Positions 284 through 7,946 of a stretch of DNA of 7,946 nucleotides are shown piece after piece; position 1 is the first letter of the stretch, and each line of letters begins with the position of its first letter. Origin of the DNA: Thermoproteota archaeon (GTDB lineage: Archaea; Korarchaeota; Korarchaeia; B14-G2); assembly GCA_003661385.1 (NCBI GenBank), contig QMWA01000075.1, positions 1-7,946 on the forward strand. Reading direction: 5' to 3'. The notes beneath the pieces are model-generated. The model was not told the origin of the DNA and made no database searches. It worked only from the letters and a program-made list of their open reading frames with translations. The position numbers and the translations under genes are program-made.

Positions 284-2173
284 TCAGATTTCAATCAGCT
301 TGGCTTCAGCATGCTCTACTATGTCCTGTATGTAGGATGCTCCAGGTGATATGCCAGGGCCTCTCGTGTCGTACACGCTGAGGGAGATCTTGCTCTTCTT
401 CACTGCCTTGGATAGCTGAGGTATCTCGTCTGCTACTCTGCTGTAAAGTGGGACGTTGGCTTTCCCATCTGTTATCAGGAATGCCCTAACTGCTAGTGTT
501 TTCTCCTTCATCCTCTCTCTTCTAGCTAGGTTGAGTAGCATCTGGAGGGCTGAGCTGAGTGGGGTCTTTCCTCCAGTTGGCGTCTCATCTATTGCCTTGA
601 GGATGCTGAGGTAGTTCCTCGTGGGTGGGGCTGCTAGCGTGGCTTGGGCTCCCCTGAAGACTATGAGTGAGATCTTGGACCTCTTGATGTACCCCTTCTC
701 CACTAGCTTCTTGGCTATCCCCTTGGCTACGCTTATCCTCTTCTGGATGCTCATGCTTCCACTTGAGTCGAGCATGAGGACCCATAGCGTGGGTGGCCTA
801 GCTTTCCTCACCCTCACCCTGAGGTCCTCTGGGCTAGGCTTCACCGGGGGCTTCTTTCCTGATAGGATGGCCCAGAGTGCTGTCGCGTAGAGGTCTACGT
901 CCTCCACGCTGCCCTTCGGCACAGTGTAGTACACTGGGATCCCTCTGGGGTAGCCTACCACGGCTGCTACAGCGTCCCTAGAGGAGCGTGTGCTAGCCAG
1001 GTAGCTGTCTAAGCTCACCTTACCTGGCACCTGGGCGCTTGCGTCAGCTGCCTGGTAGAGCCTGTCCCTGCCGCCTAGGCTGCTGTGGCTGTGGTGGCTG
1101 TGCTGGTGGCTGCTGTCCTCTCGGTGCCTGGGGTCTTCCCTTCCTGCTGGTGGCTTGGGCTTTGGGAGCTGCGCTCTGGGTGGCTGCTGGAGTGGCTTCT
1201 CCTTAAGGCGGTGTGGTAGCGCTAGCTCCATTGCCCTCTCTAGGTCGCTCAGGGTCACTTTGGCTCTCCCGTCTAGGGCTGCTATGGCCTTTGCTGTCTT
1301 CACTGTCGTTATCTCTGCTCTGCTGGTCTTTATCCCGAGGCTTATGACCGTCTCTGCTAGGAGCTTGATCAGCTCGTCGCTTACCTCCACCTTTGGTAGG
1401 AGTTTTCTTGCCCTTGTTACCTTCTCTGCTATTGCTTCCTCGCTTGCCCTGTACTTCTCGTAGAAGGAGGCAGGGTCCTTGTGGAAGCTTTCCACTCTCC
1501 TGACTATCTCAGCTCTCTCCTCTGGTGTGCTTGGGGCAGTGACCTCTACGCATAGGCCGAACCTGTCTAGGATCTGCGGCCTGAGCTCTCCTTCCTCTGG
1601 GTTCATGCTGCCCACCAGGATGAACCTAGCTGGATGCTTGAATGAGACTGTCTCCCTCTCTATGATGTTCCAGCCCATTGCCGCGGCGTCTAGGAGGGCG
1701 TCTGCTATGTAGTCGTCTAGCAGGTTGACTTCGTCGATGTAGAGTATGCCTCTGTTGGCCTCGGCTAGCACCCCGTGCTGGAGTGCTCTCCTGCCTTCCT
1801 TCAGGAACCTCTCTACGTCTATCGTCCCAACTAGCCTGTCCACTGTGATGCTGAGCGGCAGGTCTACTACACGCATCTTCCTCCTTGCTACTGGGAGCTC
1901 CTCTCCTCTCATGTGCCTCTGGTAGCAGCTGTCGCACATCTCAAGTGGGTTTCTGGGGTTGCAGTTGAATGGGCAGTCTGCTACAACCTCTATCTCAGGT
2001 AGGACGTTTGCTAGCGCCCTGACTAGGGTGGACTTCCCTGTCCCCTTGTCTCCTCTCAGCAGGACTCCGCCTATCAGCGGGTCTACTGCGACGCAGAGCA
2101 GGGCGAGCTTGGCGTTCTCCTGGCCTACTATGGCTGAGAAGGGGAGCACTACTCTCCTCTCGCAAGCCTCCAT
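284..2173 (-). CDS. Fused ChlI-ChlD chelatase motor (AAA+ ATPase plus von Willebrand factor A domain)
   Basis: 629 residues. The AAA+ (ChlI/BchI) half spans about residues 10-320: Walker A GDKGTGKS at 41-48, Walker B LYIDE at 144-148, sensor-1 asparagine in GSMNPEEGEL near 191, DRFG with the likely arginine finger R204, and sensor-2 region TSRAE near 283-287. A Cys set C67-x3-C71-x8-C80-x2-C83 lies after Walker A and could bind a metal. A Pro/His-rich linker (about 325-365) joins it to the ChlD-like C-terminus, whose vWA domain has an intact MIDAS motif DSSGSMS at 469-475 and T537. In class I chelatases, I and D form the ATP-driven motor that acts on the H/CobN subunit holding the tetrapyrrole. 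One-chain I-D fusions of this size are common in archaea and some bacteria. The start overlaps the CobN C-terminal gene by 25 bases and has a strong ribosome site at 2182-2188. With CobN next door, cobaltochelatase is the best guess; magnesium chelation is unlikely because no chlorophyll genes are present. Confidence 0.93.
   Translation of the reverse strand: MEACERRVVLPFSAIVGQENAKLALLCVAVDPLIGGVLLRGDKGTGKSTLVRALANVLPEIEVVADCPFNCNPRNPLEMCDSCYQRHMRGEELPVARRKMRVVDLPLSITVDRLVGTIDVERFLKEGRRALQHGVLAEANRGILYIDEVNLLDDYIADALLDAAAMGWNIIERETVSFKHPARFILVGSMNPEEGELRPQILDRFGLCVEVTAPSTPEERAEIVRRVESFHKDPASFYEKYRASEEAIAEKVTRARKLLPKVEVSDELIKLLAETVISLGIKTSRAEITTVKTAKAIAALDGRAKVTLSDLERAMELALPHRLKEKPLQQPPRAQLPKPKPPAGREDPRHREDSSHQHSHHSHSSLGGRDRLYQAADASAQVPGKVSLDSYLASTRSSRDAVAAVVGYPRGIPVYYTVPKGSVEDVDLYATALWAILSGKKPPVKPSPEDLRVRVRKARPPTLWVLMLDSSGSMSIQKRISVAKGIAKKLVEKGYIKRSKISLIVFRGAQATLAAPPTRNYLSILKAIDETPTGGKTPLSSALQMLLNLARRERMKEKTLAVRAFLITDGKANVPLYSRVADEIPQLSKAVKKSKISLSVYDTRGPGISPGASYIQDIVEHAEAKLIEI
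1085..1126 (-). repeat. Histidine-rich low-complexity linker inside ChlID
   Basis: Codons 350-363 of the ChlI-ChlD protein carry six histidines (350, 356, 358, 360, 361, 363) among Ser, Asp, Glu and Gln. At DNA level this appears as a run of GTG/GCTG units on the plus strand. It lies between the AAA+ and vWA halves, within a stretch rich in Pro and charged residues. It could bind or buffer a divalent metal close to the chelatase, by analogy with His-rich tracts of cobalt and nickel handling proteins; it may equally be a plain flexible linker. Confidence 0.6.
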
Positions 2174-3681
2174 GCCCTCTCCACCTCCCGGATGCGGCTC
2201 TTCCAGTGGCTGCTGTCCTCAGCTGTGTAGACCTCTATTGTGCCTCCCTGGACCTCGCCTCCAGCGAGCTCCTCCTCTAGGATACCCTCCAGCTCGGAGT
2301 AGGCTTCCTTGAGCTCCTCTATGAGCTCCTCGCTAGTAGACCAAAGCCCCCTCTCGTAGGCTTCTACCAGGCGCCTAGCTATCTCCTCTGCTGCATAGGG
2401 GTTGTGCTCCTCCAGCCACCTCCTCATCTCCTCGTCGAGGAGGTACCTTCTGGCTATCTCGTCGAACACCCAGTCCTCTACTACGCCTGCTGTAGCCTCC
2501 CAGCCATAGAGGTGTAGGATCTTCTTCGAGAACTCGCTGGCGCCCCTGTAGCCGTGCTTCTTCATCTCCTCAATCCACCTCTCGTTCAGGAGCTTAGCTC
2601 TCACTATCCTCTCGACCTCGTCCTTTACGTCTACTATCCTGGTCTCAGAGATGTCTCTCGTGTCGACTTGGACTACGTCTATGCTCTTGCCTGTTAAGGC
2701 TTCTGCTGCAGCCTTGAAGCCGCCGTGGTACGCGAAGTAGCAGCAGCAGTTGGTGAGGTCGTGCTCATCGCTTATGTGGTTCCTGGCTACCACATCGACC
2801 TCCATCAGGCCTAGGACAAGGGGCTCATAGGCCTCTACGCCGAAGGCGTCTTTCCCGTAGGCGTAGCCAGACCACTGGACCCAGACCTTGCCCAGGTCTT
2901 CTATGCTCCTCCAGGCAGATGCCTCTACAGCGAGGTTGACTCCAGTGCCGTAGGCTCCAGGCGGGGCGCTGAAGACCCTGAAGCGAGCTAGCCTCCTGGC
3001 CTCCCCTACGCCCCTGCCGAGCTCCACTAGCTTCTTGATGTGCTCGATGTAGTGCTTCCTCACGTAGTTCACCTCAGGAGGCTCGTCTAGCGAGACCACC
3101 TTCTCAACTGCCTCGTCTATCAGGTTGATGTAGTTTGGCAGCGTGTCCCTGACTATGCCGCTTATCCTAACGAGCACATCTATCCTAGGCCTGCCGAGCT
3201 CCTCTAGCGGTATGGCCTCGAGCCCAGAGACGACGTCTCCAGCCCAGGTGGGCTTGACTCCCATGAGGTGCAGGATCTGAGCTATCTGCTCTCCGTCAGC
3301 CTTGTAGCCGTCTATGCTCCAGAGGACCTGCCCCACGCTCTCAGGGTACCTCCCATGCCTCCTCCTGTACTCCTCTAGGAGCTTCTCAGCTGTCTCAACA
3401 CCGATCTCCCAAGCTGCCTTCGTTGGGAGAGCCCTGGGGTCTACGGCATAGAAGTTCCTGCCAGTAGGCAGTATCTCAAACCTCCCTCTGGTCAAGGCCC
3501 CTGAGGGCCCTGGCTCAACATACCCTCCAGCTAGCCCAGCTAGGAGCCCGCTGACCTCCCTCCTGCACTCCAGCATCCTCCTAGCTAGCTCAAGCGCCCT
3601 CTCGAAGACGCCCCTGAGCTTCTCTGGGTGCTTGAGCTCGAACCCAGCTCTCCTAGCCTCCTCCTCAACTACCTTCAGCAT
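2149..3681 (-). CDS. cobN: CobN C-terminal part (cobaltochelatase large subunit, second of two split genes)
   Basis: 510 residues from the ATG at 3681. The sequence matches the C-terminal third of CobN/ChlH-type chelatase subunits: GGYVEPGPSG at 52-61, LPTGRNFYAVDP at 71-82, DGYKADGEQIAQILHLMGVKP around 124-144 (split here: DGYKADGEQ then IAQILHLMGVKP), RPRIDVLVRISGIVRD at 164-179, PPGAYGTGVN at 240-249, YHGG at 318-321, and the region with GWEATAGVVEDWVFDE from 393 to NPYA at 430. A triple cysteine (312-314) precedes YHGG. The reading frame has a GTG three codons earlier at 3690, but GGAGG at 3691-3695 sits nine bases before the ATG, so the ATG is preferred. It overlaps the N-terminal CobN gene by 17 bases in a different frame. 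The two products together total 1258 residues, the usual size of a full CobN, so they should assemble into one H-type subunit. No large region appears to be missing. Confidence 0.92.
   Translation of the reverse strand: MLKVVEEEARRAGFELKHPEKLRGVFERALELARRMLECRREVSGLLAGLAGGYVEPGPSGALTRGRFEILPTGRNFYAVDPRALPTKAAWEIGVETAEKLLEEYRRRHGRYPESVGQVLWSIDGYKADGEQIAQILHLMGVKPTWAGDVVSGLEAIPLEELGRPRIDVLVRISGIVRDTLPNYINLIDEAVEKVVSLDEPPEVNYVRKHYIEHIKKLVELGRGVGEARRLARFRVFSAPPGAYGTGVNLAVEASAWRSIEDLGKVWVQWSGYAYGKDAFGVEAYEPLVLGLMEVDVVARNHISDEHDLTNCCCYFAYHGGFKAAAEALTGKSIDVVQVDTRDISETRIVDVKDEVERIVRAKLLNERWIEEMKKHGYRGASEFSKKILHLYGWEATAGVVEDWVFDEIARRYLLDEEMRRWLEEHNPYAAEEIARRLVEAYERGLWSTSEELIEELKEAYSELEGILEEELAGGEVQGGTIEVYTAEDSSHWKSRIREVERAWRLARGE
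2182..2188 (-). promoter_or_regulatory. Strong ribosome binding site for ChlID
   Basis: GGAGGTG on the minus strand, eight bases before the ATG at 2173. It matches the archaeal anti-Shine-Dalgarno sequence and lies inside the end of the upstream CobN C-terminal gene. It fixes the ChlID start and shows that ChlID can be translated on its own despite the 25-base overlap. Confidence 0.75.
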
Positions 3682-5911
3682 GGCAGACACCCTCCAGCAG
3701 GCGCTCCAGGCTCCTCACAGCAACCTCATGCAGGCGCTCCAGGAGCTCCCTGTTGGACACGCCTCCAGTCGAGGCCATGGGGTTCTTTCTGATCTCATCG
3801 TAGTCTAGCCCGAATGCCTCGGCTAAAGCCCTCCTTATAGACGGGCAGCAGTGGGAGTCGTATGCCATCACTGTGGCTATGTACTCTGCTAGCCTCCTCG
3901 GGTCTCTGGGTGGGTGCCCGAAGACATGCAGCCCAAGGTTCACCTGGGAGCCTCTGACCAAGTCGACGTACCTGTGCACCTCCTCTATGGTCTGCTTCTC
4001 GTCTATGGGGTTAGTCACCTTCACCCTGCTCCTCTCAGCCTCCTCCAGTATCTGCCTGTACACCATCATCCTCCTAGCCTCATCTCCCATGCTCTTGGCG
4101 TGAGCATACTGCTTGAGCAGGGAGTCAAGCTCATCCAGGGCCTCAGCCATCGCCATAGGAGGGTACATGTGGTCTACTAGCACAGCATACCCCCTCCTCT
4201 TTGCTATCACGCCCTCCATCGGGTTTGAGACTATGTACACGTAGAGGTGCGGCGCGTCATCTAAGGTGGCTTCTGGCACGCAAGACGGCGAAAGCCCGAC
4301 GCCCTTGCCAGGCCTGAACTCCAGGTACCCGTGGGTTCCGAAGTGGATGAGCAGGTCAGCCTTGAACTTGCGTGTGACCCACCTGTAAGCAGCCCACCAC
4401 TGGTGTGGAGGTGTTATGGTTGGGTCATGGAGCACCCGGCAGACTCTGCCATCGCACCTAGAGCCTGCACACCCAAACTTCGGCTGCACCATGACGACCA
4501 CGTTCCCGAACCTCACTCCTGGGACCACAAACTTCCCCTCGTAGACCATCCCAGCGAGCTCCTTGGGTGCTCTCCCAGACAGCACGTCCTCAGGCTTCCC
4601 CCAGTCCTCTATGATCTTCTCCCTCAGGTCATCTGGGAGCTCGCTGAGCCACCTCAGGTACTCCTCCAGGGTGACAAAGCCTAATGCCCCACCTCTCTCG
4701 ACTACCTCCTCGACGCTAGTCCACCTGAACTCGCTTATCGCCTTCCTCTCCAGGATGAGCTTGACAAGCCCCTCCCCGCTCTCAGGGAGGCTGTCTCCCA
4801 GGTGGTAGCCTTCCTCCTTGAGCTTGTGGAGGAGCCTGACCACGCTCTCAGGCACATCCAGCCCCATCCCCACAGCTACGCTCGCCTCAAGCCCCTTGCA
4901 AGGGGGGTTGATCAGCACTATGGCGACTTTAACCTGGCTCCTTGGCTTCCTCCTCAGCTCAACCCACTTCCTCACCCTCCTAGCGAGGTGCTTCACGTGC
5001 TCCCTGAAGGCCTCCCCCCTCTTGTACCCCTCTATGCTCTTTGTCCCAGCTATGAACAGCGGCTCAGCTGCCCCAGCGAGCTCTGGGACTATGACCCCAT
5101 AGACCTGCGTCATGTAGTCTACTCCCTTGCTGCTCTCCACCCACTCGCTGACAGGCTGGCTGTATGAGCGGAGTGGGGCAAGCACAGGGACGCCAACACG
5201 GCTCAAGTCACCTAAGTCCACTGCTCCAAAGGAGATCAAGCTGACGATGGCCTCCACAACAGGCCTCCCCCCTATGGTGAAGAACTCGTCTACAGCCCTG
5301 CTCCTGTCCTCGCCGAGCCCTGTCACAGGGTCCTTGCCGTAGGTGAAGACTGGGATCACACCTAGCCCCTGCCTTTCAAGCTCCTCAACAACCTCCTTCA
5401 CTGGAGTGAGGTCCCCATAGAGCCAGGCGCTCCTCCAGAAGAGCACCCCGACCAGAGGCCTCATCTTGTAGTCCTCTAGGTACCTGCTTAAGCTGGTGTA
5501 GACTCCCATCTGAGGGTGGTATATGCCATGCATCGGCACCTCCCTTGGCTCACTGTACTCTCGCCTATCGCCTGCTAGAGTAGCCAGGAACCTGACTAGG
5601 CTCCTGAGGTTCTCTACGCCACCTAGGATGTAGTATGCCTTAGCCTTAGCCACAATGTCCTGTGGGACGTTGCTGAGCTCCTCCAGGCCGCCAGCTGAAA
5701 TCACCTTCGCCCTGCTCTCCCTTATGGCGTCGGCTACAGGCTCCGGGAGCGTGTGGGCGTAGATGAAAACCACGCTCGCGCTCCTGAGCTCACCTAAGAC
5801 CTTAATGCAGCTCTCGTCGGTCAAAGCTAGCCCACTGACCTCCTCCTCAGCCAGGATCCTCTCGACTACTGGGAGAGGCCTGGCACCATACCCTAGTATG
5901 AGGCATATCAT
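3665..5911 (-). CDS. cobN: CobN N-terminal part (cobaltochelatase large subunit, first of two split genes)
   Basis: 748 residues from the ATG at 5911, which forms an ATGA overlap with the stop of the upstream membrane protein gene; a GTG at 5941 would add ten residues but is poorly placed. The family signature is clear: GVLFWRSAWLYGD near 155-167, GVIPVFTYG near 184-192, VQPKFGCAGSRCDGRVC ending at 491 followed by LHDPTITPPHQWWAAYRWV, the near-invariant HFGTHGYLEFRPGK at 523-535, and NPMEGVIAKRRGYAVLVDH at 563-581. In CobN/ChlH proteins the HxGTHG...E region is thought to line the tetrapyrrole site. The three-cysteine insert C481-x4-C486-x4-C491 replaces a Cys-free stretch of many bacterial CobN and is, from memory, typical of archaeal versions. 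The protein stops after a helical tail, just before the conserved region that resumes in the next gene with GGYVEPGPSG. Cytoplasmic, no signal peptide. Cobalt is the likely metal; nickel or a reverse (metal-removing) reaction cannot be excluded. Confidence 0.92.
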   Translation of the reverse strand: MICLILGYGARPLPVVERILAEEEVSGLALTDESCIKVLGELRSASVVFIYAHTLPEPVADAIRESRAKVISAGGLEELSNVPQDIVAKAKAYYILGGVENLRSLVRFLATLAGDRREYSEPREVPMHGIYHPQMGVYTSLSRYLEDYKMRPLVGVLFWRSAWLYGDLTPVKEVVEELERQGLGVIPVFTYGKDPVTGLGEDRSRAVDEFFTIGGRPVVEAIVSLISFGAVDLGDLSRVGVPVLAPLRSYSQPVSEWVESSKGVDYMTQVYGVIVPELAGAAEPLFIAGTKSIEGYKRGEAFREHVKHLARRVRKWVELRRKPRSQVKVAIVLINPPCKGLEASVAVGMGLDVPESVVRLLHKLKEEGYHLGDSLPESGEGLVKLILERKAISEFRWTSVEEVVERGGALGFVTLEEYLRWLSELPDDLREKIIEDWGKPEDVLSGRAPKELAGMVYEGKFVVPGVRFGNVVVMVQPKFGCAGSRCDGRVCRVLHDPTITPPHQWWAAYRWVTRKFKADLLIHFGTHGYLEFRPGKGVGLSPSCVPEATLDDAPHLYVYIVSNPMEGVIAKRRGYAVLVDHMYPPMAMAEALDELDSLLKQYAHAKSMGDEARRMMVYRQILEEAERSRVKVTNPIDEKQTIEEVHRYVDLVRGSQVNLGLHVFGHPPRDPRRLAEYIATVMAYDSHCCPSIRRALAEAFGLDYDEIRKNPMASTGGVSNRELLERLHEVAVRSLERLLEGVCHAEGS
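3691..3695 (-). promoter_or_regulatory. Ribosome binding site deciding the start of the CobN C-terminal gene
   Basis: GGAGG, followed by GTG, on the minus strand nine bases before the ATG at 3681. It directly abuts the alternative GTG at 3690, so that codon cannot use it. Its presence inside the end of the CobN N-terminal gene argues for real independent initiation of the second half rather than a sequencing error in a single long gene. Confidence 0.7.
3697..3743 (-). repeat. 14-base perfect direct repeat, period 33, at the CobN split junction
   Basis: The plus-strand sequence GCAGGCGCTCCAGG occurs at 3697-3710 and again at 3730-3743, a period of 33 bases or exactly 11 codons. It encodes two copies of the helix segment LERL within the last 25 residues of the CobN N-terminal half (LLERLHEVAVRSLERLLEG). 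It may be a small in-frame duplication or simply a heptad-like helix with biased codons. It lies directly upstream of the second CobN gene. Confidence 0.55.
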
Positions 5912-6915
5912 CCAAGCCACCCCAGTGCAGCTATGAAGCACAAGGCTATCGCGCTCCTGAGCATCATAGAGGCGAGCATGATCCCAAAGCCCTCTCTGCC
6001 ATACACCCCAACATAGTATGGGATGAGAACCCTCAGGTAGCTTACGTTAGCCAGAAGAGACCCCACAAGGAGAGCTCTAATCAGCTTCCTCCCGCATACA
6101 AGCCCAGCGTCAAGCAGGCTTCCACCCAGGGTGTAGGCTGCGACGCTGCTGGCCATGTAGGCTGCTGCGATGCTCAGCTCCTCAGGTGAGAGAGGGAGGC
6201 AAGAAGCTGCCTCCTCCACCACTGCAGCCAGAGAGCTGAAGAACCCAGACTCCACCAGGAGAGCAGCCAGGTAGGTCACCACAACCATAGTCCCCAGAAT
6301 GGGGGGAGCATGCCTCCTAACCCCTCTCAAGGCCCCTCTGAGGGCTTCTGAGAGGGGCTTACCGCCCTCCTCGCTTCCGCTCTCGCCTCCTGTGCTTGGC
6401 TGCCTGCTAGCAGGCTTGGTGAGGAGGAGCCTGCCTGCTGTGGCTGAGATTAAGGCCTGTATTAGGCTGATTGAGACCAGGATTCCGAAGTAGGCTAGCC
6501 CTAGGCTCCCGAGGGTTGCTAGGAGGATGGGGATAAGTGAGTTCCAGTGCCTGACCATGGACGGGAACGAGTTCATGAGTGCTGCTATGTAGAGCTCTCT
6601 CCTGCTTATCTTGTTCTCCCTGTAGAAGCTTACGAGCATTGCTCCCGCTGCCCTAGCGTTCAGGAATGCTGCTGTGAAGGGCAGAGAGCACTCTGATGGG
6701 AGCTTGGAGAGCTTCACGAAAGGCCTCCCGAGCACCGAGGCCCTTCTGACAGCCCCCTTCTCAGCTAGGAGCTCAGCTACGAAGACTCCAGCAAGCAGGC
6801 TTGGGACAGAGCGCTTGAGGAGCCTAGCAGAGTACTCAGCTGACCTGGCAAGCAGCTCAAGCACATCTCCCGCCCCCGCGGACAAGGCTGCTGGAGGCAT
6901 GATGCTACCTACCAT
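5908..6915 (-). CDS. Multi-pass membrane protein with two Gate-like (nucleoside-recognition-like) repeats
   Basis: 335 residues, about eight hydrophobic segments (roughly 36-52, 76-98, 127-145, 146-165, 203-232, 246-266, 278-300, 311-334). The two halves resemble each other: about 30-165 and 200-335 both start with a basic residue and P-(S/P)-(L/I)-L, run through a hydrophobic segment, and contain a stretch of the type A-x-A-x-L followed by a basic segment and a run ending in LIP (NSLIPI, RVLIPYY). This is the pattern I associate with the Gate/nucleoside-recognition family and with the core of FeoB and related transporters. The halves are joined by a hydrophilic loop (166-202) with a Ser/Gly/Glu-rich part. 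No substrate can be named. It starts 11 bases inside the ATPase gene (ATG at 6915, GGGTGG six bases upstream); an ATG at 6900 is an alternative. Its stop overlaps the CobN start by four bases, so it is likely co-translated with the chelatase and may move a metal or the tetrapyrrole. Confidence 0.72.
   Translation of the reverse strand: MVGSIMPPAALSAGAGDVLELLARSAEYSARLLKRSVPSLLAGVFVAELLAEKGAVRRASVLGRPFVKLSKLPSECSLPFTAAFLNARAAGAMLVSFYRENKISRRELYIAALMNSFPSMVRHWNSLIPILLATLGSLGLAYFGILVSISLIQALISATAGRLLLTKPASRQPSTGGESGSEEGGKPLSEALRGALRGVRRHAPPILGTMVVVTYLAALLVESGFFSSLAAVVEEAASCLPLSPEELSIAAAYMASSVAAYTLGGSLLDAGLVCGRKLIRALLVGSLLANVSYLRVLIPYYVGVYGREGFGIMLASMMLRSAIALCFIAALGWLG
6321..6357. repeat. Inverted repeat and tandem 12-base repeat in the cytoplasmic loop of the membrane protein gene
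   Basis: CCCCTCTCA at 6321-6329 is perfectly complementary to TGAGAGGGG at 6349-6357, with a smaller palindrome CCCTC-T-GAGGG at 6334-6344 in the spacer. On the coding strand the same bases are an imperfect tandem 12-base repeat (6322-6345) that encodes ALRG twice in the basic loop of the membrane protein. The coding repeat largely explains the hairpin potential. Confidence 0.5.
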
Positions 6916-7681
6916 GAGACGCCACCCTTGGGAGGACTACTCTGAGCCCATTCACCTCAATGGTGCAAACTGGGACACCATAGACCTTCTCGAGGACCTC
7001 GCTCCTCAGCACGCTCCTAGGGCTCCCTAAGGCTATGATCCTGCCGTCTCTGACTAAGGCTATCTTATCAGAGTAGACTGATGCCAAGGTGGGGTCGTGG
7101 AGCGTCATGACAGCTGAAACCCCCTCCCCTCTGGCCAGCGTCCTCACGACCTCGAGGATCTTCACCTGGTTCCTGAAGTCCAGGTGTGCTGTAGGCTCGT
7201 CAAGCAGCAGAACCCTGGGATCCTGGACTAGCGCCCTAGCGATCAAGGCTAGCTGAAGCTGGCCTCCACTAAGCTGGGTGTAAGGCCTGTCCTTGAGGCC
7301 TTCTATGCCTAGAAGCCTGAGCTTCTCCAGAGCTCTCCTGTAGTGCTCCTCACCTGGGGCCTCAAACACCCCAAGCTGAGAGGCAAGCCCCATCACAACA
7401 AACTCCAGGACAGTATACGGGAATGAGGGGCTATGCACTTGAGGGACGTATCCAGCTAGCTTAGCTCTCTCCCTGAGGGGCAGGGAGTGGAAGTCCCTGC
7501 CATCTACCAGGACACACCTCCTCTTGGGCTTGAGCAGCCCATAGATGCACTTCAAGATCGTGGTCTTACCGCTTCCATTAGGCCCAAGCAGGGTGAGAAC
7601 CCTACCCTCCTCAACCTCAAAGCACACGTCCCTGACGCTGAAGTCGCTGTAGCTGAACGAGAGCCCGCTAACCCTCAGCAT
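6905..7681 (-). CDS. ABC importer ATPase of the FecE/BtuD family (corrinoid, heme or iron chelate type)
   Basis: 258 residues from the ATG at 7681, giving the usual family start MLRVSGLSFSY. All ABC motifs are intact: Walker A GPNGSGKTT at 33-41, Q-loop Q81, signature LSGGQ at 137-141, Walker B LLLDEP at 158-163, D-loop HLD at 166-168, and switch histidine H195 in TLHD. The order and spacing, with PYTVLEFVVMG after the Q-loop, are those of ATPases paired with FecCD/BtuC permeases, which import cobalamin, heme and ferric siderophores. A GTG at 7693 with GAGG seven bases upstream would add MVAG at the N-terminus and cannot be excluded; the ATG has a GGTGG-type site. The start overlaps the permease stop by 14 bases, and the stop is 11 bases inside the membrane protein gene. 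Substrate is not readable from the ATPase itself. Confidence 0.95.
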   Translation of the reverse strand: MLRVSGLSFSYSDFSVRDVCFEVEEGRVLTLLGPNGSGKTTILKCIYGLLKPKRRCVLVDGRDFHSLPLRERAKLAGYVPQVHSPSFPYTVLEFVVMGLASQLGVFEAPGEEHYRRALEKLRLLGIEGLKDRPYTQLSGGQLQLALIARALVQDPRVLLLDEPTAHLDFRNQVKILEVVRTLARGEGVSAVMTLHDPTLASVYSDKIALVRDGRIIALGSPRSVLRSEVLEKVYGVPVCTIEVNGLRVVLPRVASHGR

Positions 7682-7946
7682 ACCAGCCACCACCAGTCTT
7701 CCTCAGCAGGTAAGCGAAGAAGGGCACACCAAGCAAGGTGGTCAGCACGCCAACTGGGATCTCATAGGAGGCTAGGGACCTAGCTAGCGTGTCAGCTAAC
7801 GTCATGAAGGAGGCTCCGACAGCAGTGGAGACTGGGATGAGGAGCCTGTGGTCTGGCCCGAAGGCCATCCTCACCATGTGGGGTATCATGAGCCCAACCC
7901 ACCCTATGACGCCACAGAACGACACCGAGGAGGAGGTCACCAGGGA
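7668..7946 (-). CDS. FecCD/BtuC-type ABC importer permease, C-terminal fragment (cut by window edge)
   Basis: 92 residues before the stop are visible; the frame stays open to the right edge, so the beginning of the gene is missing. The methionine codons inside are not the true start. The fragment carries the family's most conserved end: CGVIGWVGLMIPHMVRMAFGPDHR (split as CGVIGWVGLMIPHMVR then MAFGPDHR), then SASFM-type glycine/alanine helix (VGASFMTLADTLAR), then IPVGVLTTLLGVPFFAYLLRK. In BtuC and FecCD these are the last transmembrane helices and the coupling region that contacts the ATPase. The family imports vitamin B12, heme and iron chelates with help from an extracytoplasmic binding protein, which would be expected further to the right. 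It overlaps the ATPase gene and is the first visible gene of the operon. Confidence 0.95.
   Translation of the reverse strand, partial: SLVTSSSVSFCGVIGWVGLMIPHMVRMAFGPDHRLLIPVSTAVGASFMTLADTLARSLASYEIPVGVLTTLLGVPFFAYLLRKTGGGWYAEG

Follow-up and report, generated by a model that had tools for sequence, protein, structure and literature searches.

FecCD/FecE importers take up corrinoids, heme or metal chelates, and CobN together with ChlI/ChlD carries out ATP-dependent metal transfer into tetrapyrroles. Here, we describe a locus of a heat-loving korarchaeon in which genes of both kinds form one operon. The locus was found on contig QMWA01000075.1 (GCA_003661385.1), which was analyzed over its whole length of 7,946 nt (hereafter the window) and encodes the end of a FecCD permease, a FecE-type ATPase, a Gate-domain membrane protein, a CobN divided into two chains, and a fused ChlI-ChlD motor subunit. 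The CobN protein belongs to a clade marked by cysteines at the predicted metal site, and this cysteine-marked, import-linked chelatase subfamily appears not to have been described so far.

Four described systems are closest to this locus. Cobaltochelatases (CobNST, and archaeal or bacterial CobN with ChlID) share with it the superfamily, the domain order (PF02514), the AAA+/VWA motor type, and the HxG(T/K)HG motif; however, the window lacks a corrin pathway or cob genes nearby, its CobN is encoded by two genes, an importer is part of the operon, and it has Cys-Cys-Cys in place of Ser-Asp-Asp and a C-x4-C-x4-C insertion in Loop I. HmuS and BtuS of Bacteroidota are likewise class I chelatase-like, linked to uptake genes, and found in hosts that depend on imported tetrapyrrole (PMC12583661, PMC6460266). 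HmuS, however, is periplasmic, membrane-anchored and NADH-using, with the motif LSLDHxxEFMGG, whereas the window has CCCYFAYHGG and an ATPase subunit in the operon, and no Hmu receptor or hemophore is found among its genes. Magnesium chelatase ChlHID also pairs a large subunit with ATP-driven AAA+ I/D subunits, but the window has no chlorophyll pathway context, and the aligned ChlH has neither the Loop I cysteines nor the Cys triad. Finally, type II ATP-binding cassette (ABC) importers of the BtuCDF/FecBCD kind share the FecCD permease, the FecE ATPase and, in relatives of the window, a Peripla_BP_2 protein; the window importer shares a single operon of overlapping genes with the chelatase rather than standing alone or with cob or siderophore genes.

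For archaeal CobN proteins without a link to cobalamin genes, "their functions are unclear" (PMC12583661). Cobalamin salvage was proposed for haloarchaeal CobN (PMC8305020), a salvage role has also been suggested for the BtuS-like proteins of Methanosarcina (PMC10846266), and Rodionov's salvage proposal for CobN-like proteins is cited in PMC6460266. The salvage idea for archaeal CobN was therefore known earlier; what appears to be new is the cysteine-lined cleft and the import-linked subfamily. A host without detectable tetrapyrrole synthesis that retains an importer-linked chelatase narrows the question of what such CobN proteins do.

A cysteine-marked clade of CobN proteins

The C-terminal CobN chain of the window reads SDEHDLTNCCCYFAYHGGF around a cysteine triad, at a position that is Ser-Asp-Asp in ordinary CobN and Leu-Asp-His in other archaeal paralogues. 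A triad beginning with two cysteines was present in 33 of 92 CobN C-domains, and these proteins, with one CGG member, are monophyletic (Shimodaira-Hasegawa-like approximate likelihood ratio test support of 90 with 92 rows, and 100/99 against five outgroup rows). The clade extends over Korarchaeia, Desulfurococcales, several methanogen and anaerobic methanotrophic archaea (ANME) groups, Thermodesulfobacteria, Thermodesulfovibrio, Sporomusa, Acetobacterium, Desulfovirgula, Kuenenia, and Geobacteraceae, all of which we take to be anaerobes. A column comparison of 27 full-length clade members with 34 ordinary CobN proteins revealed 37 invariant, clade-specific columns, six of which are cysteine (binomial p = 8e-6). 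These are C348, C491, C496, and C501 in the N-terminal part and C315 and C316 in the C-terminal part, and C317 is a cysteine in 23 of the 27. The pattern GC-x4-CDG-x-VC-x2-LHD picked out 31 clade rows and none of the 58 other rows; it is slightly altered in L077, and the clade rows L061 and L065 reach a contig end before this region. The literature searched, which had most subscription journals outside its reach, contained no account of the cysteine signature. The signature is open to mutation and assay.

In HMMER alignments with the solved CobN and ChlH structures, C-x4-C-x4-C forms a short insert within the loop directly ahead of the HDP motif, 32 residues ahead of the HFGTHG histidine. Counted along the HmuS match coordinates, C501, H505, and H537 of the window correspond to Phe-502, His-506, and His-538 of HmuS. 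In HmuS, this loop closes over the active site, Phe-502 and His-506 lie near His-538 and His-1209, and His-1209 of the LSLDHxxEFMGG motif faces His-538 across the cavity (PMC12583661). The Cys triad aligns to this motif, and the window has NCCCYFAYHGGF in place of the His-1209-containing sequence. The active-site cysteines are thus distributed over both CobN chains and, judged from the alignments, would sit around the metal.

The divided CobN and its motor subunit

The Pfam CobN-Mg_chel family matched the two CobN genes in two consecutive pieces (profile positions 2-655 and 676-1088), and the ChlI-ChlD protein carries Walker A (GDKGTGKST), Walker B, and MIDAS (metal ion-dependent adhesion site; DSSGSM) motifs. 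With a complete CobN-Mg_chel domain, an HxG[TK]HG motif, and a Walker/MIDAS partner, the proteins belong to the class I chelatase superfamily (PF02514 plus an AAA+/VWA motor). The initial annotation, made from the sequence of the window, had spoken of a full class I chelatase; a two-chain CobN and one fused ChlI-ChlD are indeed present, but the window holds no separate ChlI gene. The NCBIfam equivalog model for cobaltochelatase CobN, NF004646, has a cut-off of 1468 bits, and the window halves score below it with 607 and 608 bits. The closest unsplit relatives also fall below (L044, 1217 bits; L059, 1244 bits), while farther clade members pass (L060, 2138 bits; L084, 1655 bits), so that the model covers part of the cysteine-marked clade under the name cobaltochelatase CobN.

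Explaining the split as a sequencing error or a programmed frameshift was considered and rejected on three grounds. First, the second chain of the window has its own ribosome-binding site, GGAGGG, ahead of ATG 3681. Second, comparable splits occur elsewhere: the split point falls at about residues 746-765 of L044_11 in three cases (the window, Methanodesulfokora, and a deltaproteobacterium), Thermodesulfobacteria and Thermodesulfovibrio keep to this position a little less closely, and the second chain in each of these other four has its own ribosome-binding site as well. Third, the tree requires five changes of split state, which indicates that CobN splitting, or re-fusion, has happened repeatedly.

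Conservation of the importer-chelatase linkage

A scan of named genomes with two peptide patterns gave 80 loci. Importer genes are near at 20 of 26 loci of the cysteine clade and 3 of 37 loci of ordinary CobN (p = 2e-8), whereas cob genes are near at 2 of 26 and 26 of 37, respectively (p = 5e-7); because of the common ancestry of the loci and their recovery by pattern, the p-values overstate independence. The linkage is found in archaea and bacteria. The neighbors are either substrate-binding protein (SBP)-FecCD-FecE sets, to which Gram-negatives add a TonB receptor, or energy-coupling factor (ECF) transporters, the latter in Methanosarcina and in the genome G014; the importer type therefore varies among relatives while the linkage to the chelatase persists. 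In Candidatus Methanodesulfokora washburnensis (class Korarchaeia), the order is SBP(tandem)-FecCD-FecE-CobN1-CobN2-ChlID-Gate-Gate. The relative G017, which belongs to the same class, has a contig identical to that of this species, so the window host comes from a different korarchaeal family. The recurrence of the same set in a different order places the gene set beyond chance. Among the Korarchaeia genomes, strong matches to FecCD are confined to those with CobN (3/4 versus 0/12; Fisher p = 0.007). The coupling of uptake to the chelatase, as first annotated, is therefore well supported by the gene-neighborhood comparison, which shows conservation in related and distant genomes.

Several korarchaeal loci vary this arrangement. 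The CobN of G014 is unsplit, shares 63-72% identity with the window CobN, and lies beside ChlID and an ECF-type importer. At this locus (L044 13500-19178), the ECF importer, a membrane protein, and a secreted-looking beta-propeller protein replace FecCD/FecE at CobN-ChlID. In G019, contig C33 (L045) carries a cysteine-type CobN C-part, ChlID, a CobN with the HmuS motif, and a Gate gene in succession; contig C9 (L046) ends in two Gate genes, and we infer that the two contigs join inside the first of these. A second korarchaeal CobN type (L043 1978-5757; L045 240-3926) contains DLDHYYEFLGG, which is near the HmuS motif LSLDHxxEFMGG, and lies beside ChlID. On the strength of this motif, these proteins are candidate de-chelatases with an ATPase partner.

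The importer and the Gate-domain protein

Pfam assigns the window importer to the FecCD permease and FecE-type ATPase families. As initially annotated, the permease does belong to FecCD; only its last 92 codons are present, however, and the 5' part lies beyond the contig end. A Peripla_BP_2 binding protein adjoins FecCD in L042 and L058 (in tandem in Methanodesulfokora, L042_8). The permease scores highest with BtuC models, and for FecE the NCBIfam heme and corrinoid ABC ATPase models tie at 190 bits. In bacterial orthologue loci, the TonB receptor and the binding protein are closest to heme-type models, yet below cut-offs. Importer family models point to no particular substrate: those for heme, corrinoids, F420, and siderophores give similar scores, none of which reaches its cut-off.

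The membrane protein passes the Pfam Gate-domain (PF07670) cut-off (36.4 versus 29.6 bits). Its AlphaFold2 model (pLDDT 80, predicted local distance difference test) is closest to structures of concentrative nucleoside transporters, with Z scores of 11-12 over ∼280 residues, followed by other elevator-type families at Z scores of 10-11; Foldseek E-values are 0.01 or worse. The predicted fold would thus fit a secondary transporter. A FeoB-like fold was not among the structures listed for the model, which says nothing either way. CobN has Gate genes as neighbors in Methanodesulfokora, an ANME-1 archaeon, a deltaproteobacterium, and Methanofollis. The scan of named genomes for Gate proteins returned no relatives, the family being too divergent for the scan method.

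Ring synthesis in the host genome

The window makes up one entire contig in a metagenome-assembled genome (MAG) of 1.74 Mb in 206 contigs. The genome was searched with one marker family per step and working controls. No match was found in it for tetrapyrrole methylases (PF00590; corrin or siroheme), ALAD (PF00490), CobS (PF02654), or McrA, and the CbiA/CobQ glutaminase domain (PF07685) gave weak, partial, sub-cut-off matches only. A Korarchaeia relative assembled as a single contig of 1.6 Mb (G002) likewise shows no ALAD, methylase, or CobS, which indicates that the absence is not merely due to MAG incompleteness. The window CobN thus stands in a genome in which neither corrin ring synthesis nor the late cobalamin pathway was detected, so the chelatase cannot be accounted for as the cobalt-inserting step of a resident pathway. 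This outcome of the whole-genome check lends good support to the non-biosynthetic role that was initially suggested.

Regulation and published expression

Cobalamin riboswitches were not found at eight bacterial clade loci (L064, L066, L070, L072, L073, L076, L083, and L077), although they are present elsewhere in those clade-carrier genomes that were checked. They do occur upstream of FecCD-FecE-CobN operons of a neighboring CobN clade with the sequence SCTDYYNYYGG, here called the CTD clade (L095 2193-2378, L097 465-647, and L131 1245-1438). Control of the cysteine-marked clade by cobalamin riboswitches was rejected on this basis. Further members of the L131 operon are a CcsB-like protein and a radical S-adenosylmethionine gene. 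In published expression studies, a protein annotated CobN1 of M. marburgensis was abundant only under nickel limitation, NikR1 likewise rose only under this condition (PMC12350162), and CobN-like (Methanosarcina BtuS-like) proteins of M. barkeri responded to the iron/sulfur source (PMC10846266).

Interpretation

Taken together, the absence of riboswitches, the expression reports, the conserved linkage, and the missing ring synthesis favor metal removal or exchange over B12 synthesis. We tentatively propose that metallo-tetrapyrroles are imported and that, in the cytoplasm, a class I chelatase lined with thiolates and driven by ATP strips them of their metal or exchanges it; this is plausible, though short of probable. 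For direction, metal, substrate, and the role of the Gate protein, we infer the following. A BtuFCD/FecBCD-type ABC importer, whose binding protein would be encoded off the contig, as the FecCD-adjacent gene is in relatives, would deliver a metallo-tetrapyrrole to the cytoplasm. Both CobN chains together would form one class I chelatase active site, powered with ATP by the ChlI-ChlD AAA+ motor. The cleft would be lined by the clade cysteines, three in the gating loop and the triad opposite the conserved HFGTHG histidine, and these would take the metal, directly as thiolates or via an Fe-S cluster. The reaction would be metal removal or exchange and not insertion into a ring made de novo, and the Gate protein may move the metal or the stripped ligand across the membrane. 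With somewhat less confidence, it is possible that the clade as a whole is a subfamily of anaerobic archaea and bacteria with a cysteine-ligated redox or metal-relay center that performs ATP-driven removal or exchange, a cytoplasmic, anaerobic counterpart of HmuS. If metals are stripped or swapped in this way, anaerobes as different as korarchaea, methanogens, and sulfate reducers would have in common a means of obtaining iron, nickel, or cobalt from the cofactors of other organisms, and a whole protein group now named cobaltochelatase would need renaming.

Several points weigh against this proposal. Characterized ChlI/ChlD-dependent class I chelatases insert metals. The proven de-chelatase HmuS uses NADH (PMC12583661, PMC6460266), so ATP-driven removal would be new. 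The cysteines may be structural or zinc-binding. The host absences rest on a 91%-complete MAG with a single marker per step, and the shared ancestry of the neighborhood loci bears on the linkage statistics. The M. marburgensis and M. barkeri responses may concern proteins outside the clade. In Methanofollis (L085 2-7594), the Gate gene and a cysteine-type CobN directly follow cbi genes, the sole clade locus with a clear B12 context.

The main rival, which we regard as rather unlikely, is corrinoid salvage, in which metal-free or wrongly metallated corrinoids would enter through the importer and receive cobalt from CobN-ChlID for use in corrinoid proteins. The host encodes several proteins with B12-binding domains, including, by eye, a methyltransferase-type corrinoid protein beside an MttB-like gene. 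This finding, the BtuC-like scores of the permease, the haloarchaeal precedent, and the riboswitches of the neighboring CTD clade speak for salvage. However, CobS was not found in the host, the eight bacterial clade loci have no cobalamin riboswitch, and G002 has B12-binding proteins but neither CobN nor a strong FecCD match. Corrinoids could also enter the host by another route: a second, separate and complete SBP-FecCD-FecE importer lies on contig C92 (L148 1-2848), and since BtuC and, in part, BtuF models rank high for its permease and binding protein, it could be a corrinoid importer.

Two further explanations are improbable. In a metallophore cycle, an apo-tetrapyrrole would leave the cell, return with bound metal, and be used again after stripping by CobN-ChlID, with the Gate protein or an ABC-2 pump as exporter. 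An ABC-2 exporter ATPase-permease pair lies beside CobN at 11 loci, seven of them in the cysteine clade (e.g., L072 4899-6490 and L084 3108-4682), which suggests export of the stripped ligand or another product, and bacterial loci have genes for a TonB receptor and a binding protein ahead of the chelatase. The ABC-2 pair is not in the window, however, and a host showing no ring synthesis would need a borrowed ligand. Of similarly low probability is dedicated nickel or cobalt acquisition, with CobN-ChlID binding and handing over metal from a non-tetrapyrrole complex. The nickel response of CobN1 and NikR1 in M. marburgensis and the suitability of thiolates for late transition metals argue for it, but the tetrapyrrole-site motif HxGTHG and its flanking sequence are conserved, and the SBP similarity is family-wide rather than substrate-specific. 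That the protein is an ordinary cobaltochelatase of B12 synthesis, leftover or served by missing genes, as automatic annotation through NF004646 and the cbi-associated Methanofollis locus would have it, is very unlikely and already disfavored by the four ring and B12 markers without an above-cut-off match in the host, the scarcity of cob genes at clade loci, and the sub-cut-off NF004646 scores of the host, L044, and L059 proteins.

Gene organization and additional loci

The features of the window are listed in Table 1. Open reading frames (ORFs) and Pfam matches bear out the six overlapping same-strand genes of the initial annotation; position 7946, beyond which further genes were to be sought, is the contig end. 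On the minus strand, the order is FecCD (cut), FecE, Gate, CobN N-part, CobN C-part, and ChlI-ChlD. The overlaps are 4-26 nt with ATG 5911 and ATG 3681 as the CobN starts and 11-34 nt when the longest ORFs are taken. ATG 5911 overlaps the Gate stop codon by 4 nt (ATGA), and ChlI-ChlD probably starts at ATG 2173 with GGAGGTG ahead.

Table 1. Coordinates of genes and cysteine-related features in the window
Feature	Position	Strand	Support
FecCD/BtuC-type permease, C-terminal 92 codons	7668-7946	-	Pfam FecCD 102 bits, profile 228-311; 51% identical to L042_7
FecE/BtuD-type ABC ATPase	6905-7693	-	Pfam ABC_tran; 53% identical to L042_6; alternative start ATG 7681
Gate-domain membrane protein	5908-6915	-	Pfam Gate; predicted two-repeat elevator-like fold
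CobN N-terminal chain	3665-5911 (ORF open from 5941; likely start ATG 5911)	-	CobN-Mg_chel 560 bits
CobN C-terminal chain	2149-3690 (likely start ATG 3681)	-	CobN-Mg_chel 598 bits
Fused ChlI-ChlD AAA+/VWA motor subunit	284-2173	-	NCBIfam TIGR02442 636 bits; Pfam AAA lid, Mg_chelatase, VWA
Cys348 codon, CobN N chain (NPPCKGLEA)	4898-4900	-	Numbering from GTG 5941; Cys in 27/27 clade members, 0 ordinary CobN
C491-x4-C496-x4-C501 (FGCAGSRCDGRVC), Loop I gating loop	4439-4471	-	27/27 clade members; HMMER alignment to CobN and ChlH
HFGTHG active-site motif (His537 = HmuS His-538)	4328-4345	-	Motif described in PMC12583661
Cys triad C315-C317, CobN C chain	2740-2748	-	Numbering from GTG 3690; aligned with HmuS Leu-Asp-His1209 and CobN Ser-Asp-Asp

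A search for a shared operator found no 11-mer common to three upstream regions, which is uninformative. At positions 2-157 of the window, on the minus strand, lies the start of a protein identified by eye as AbrB/MazE-like (MGDIVRVLQKGKITIPVEVRERLGIKVGDELKLVV...), cut by the left contig end. Elsewhere, G059 (L047 7087-10329) carries cysteine-type CobN halves that are divergent on opposite strands, beside mtr-like genes. A relative of these divergent halves (G037:C1:885139-888203, L028) has in-frame stops in the C-part and is apparently decaying.

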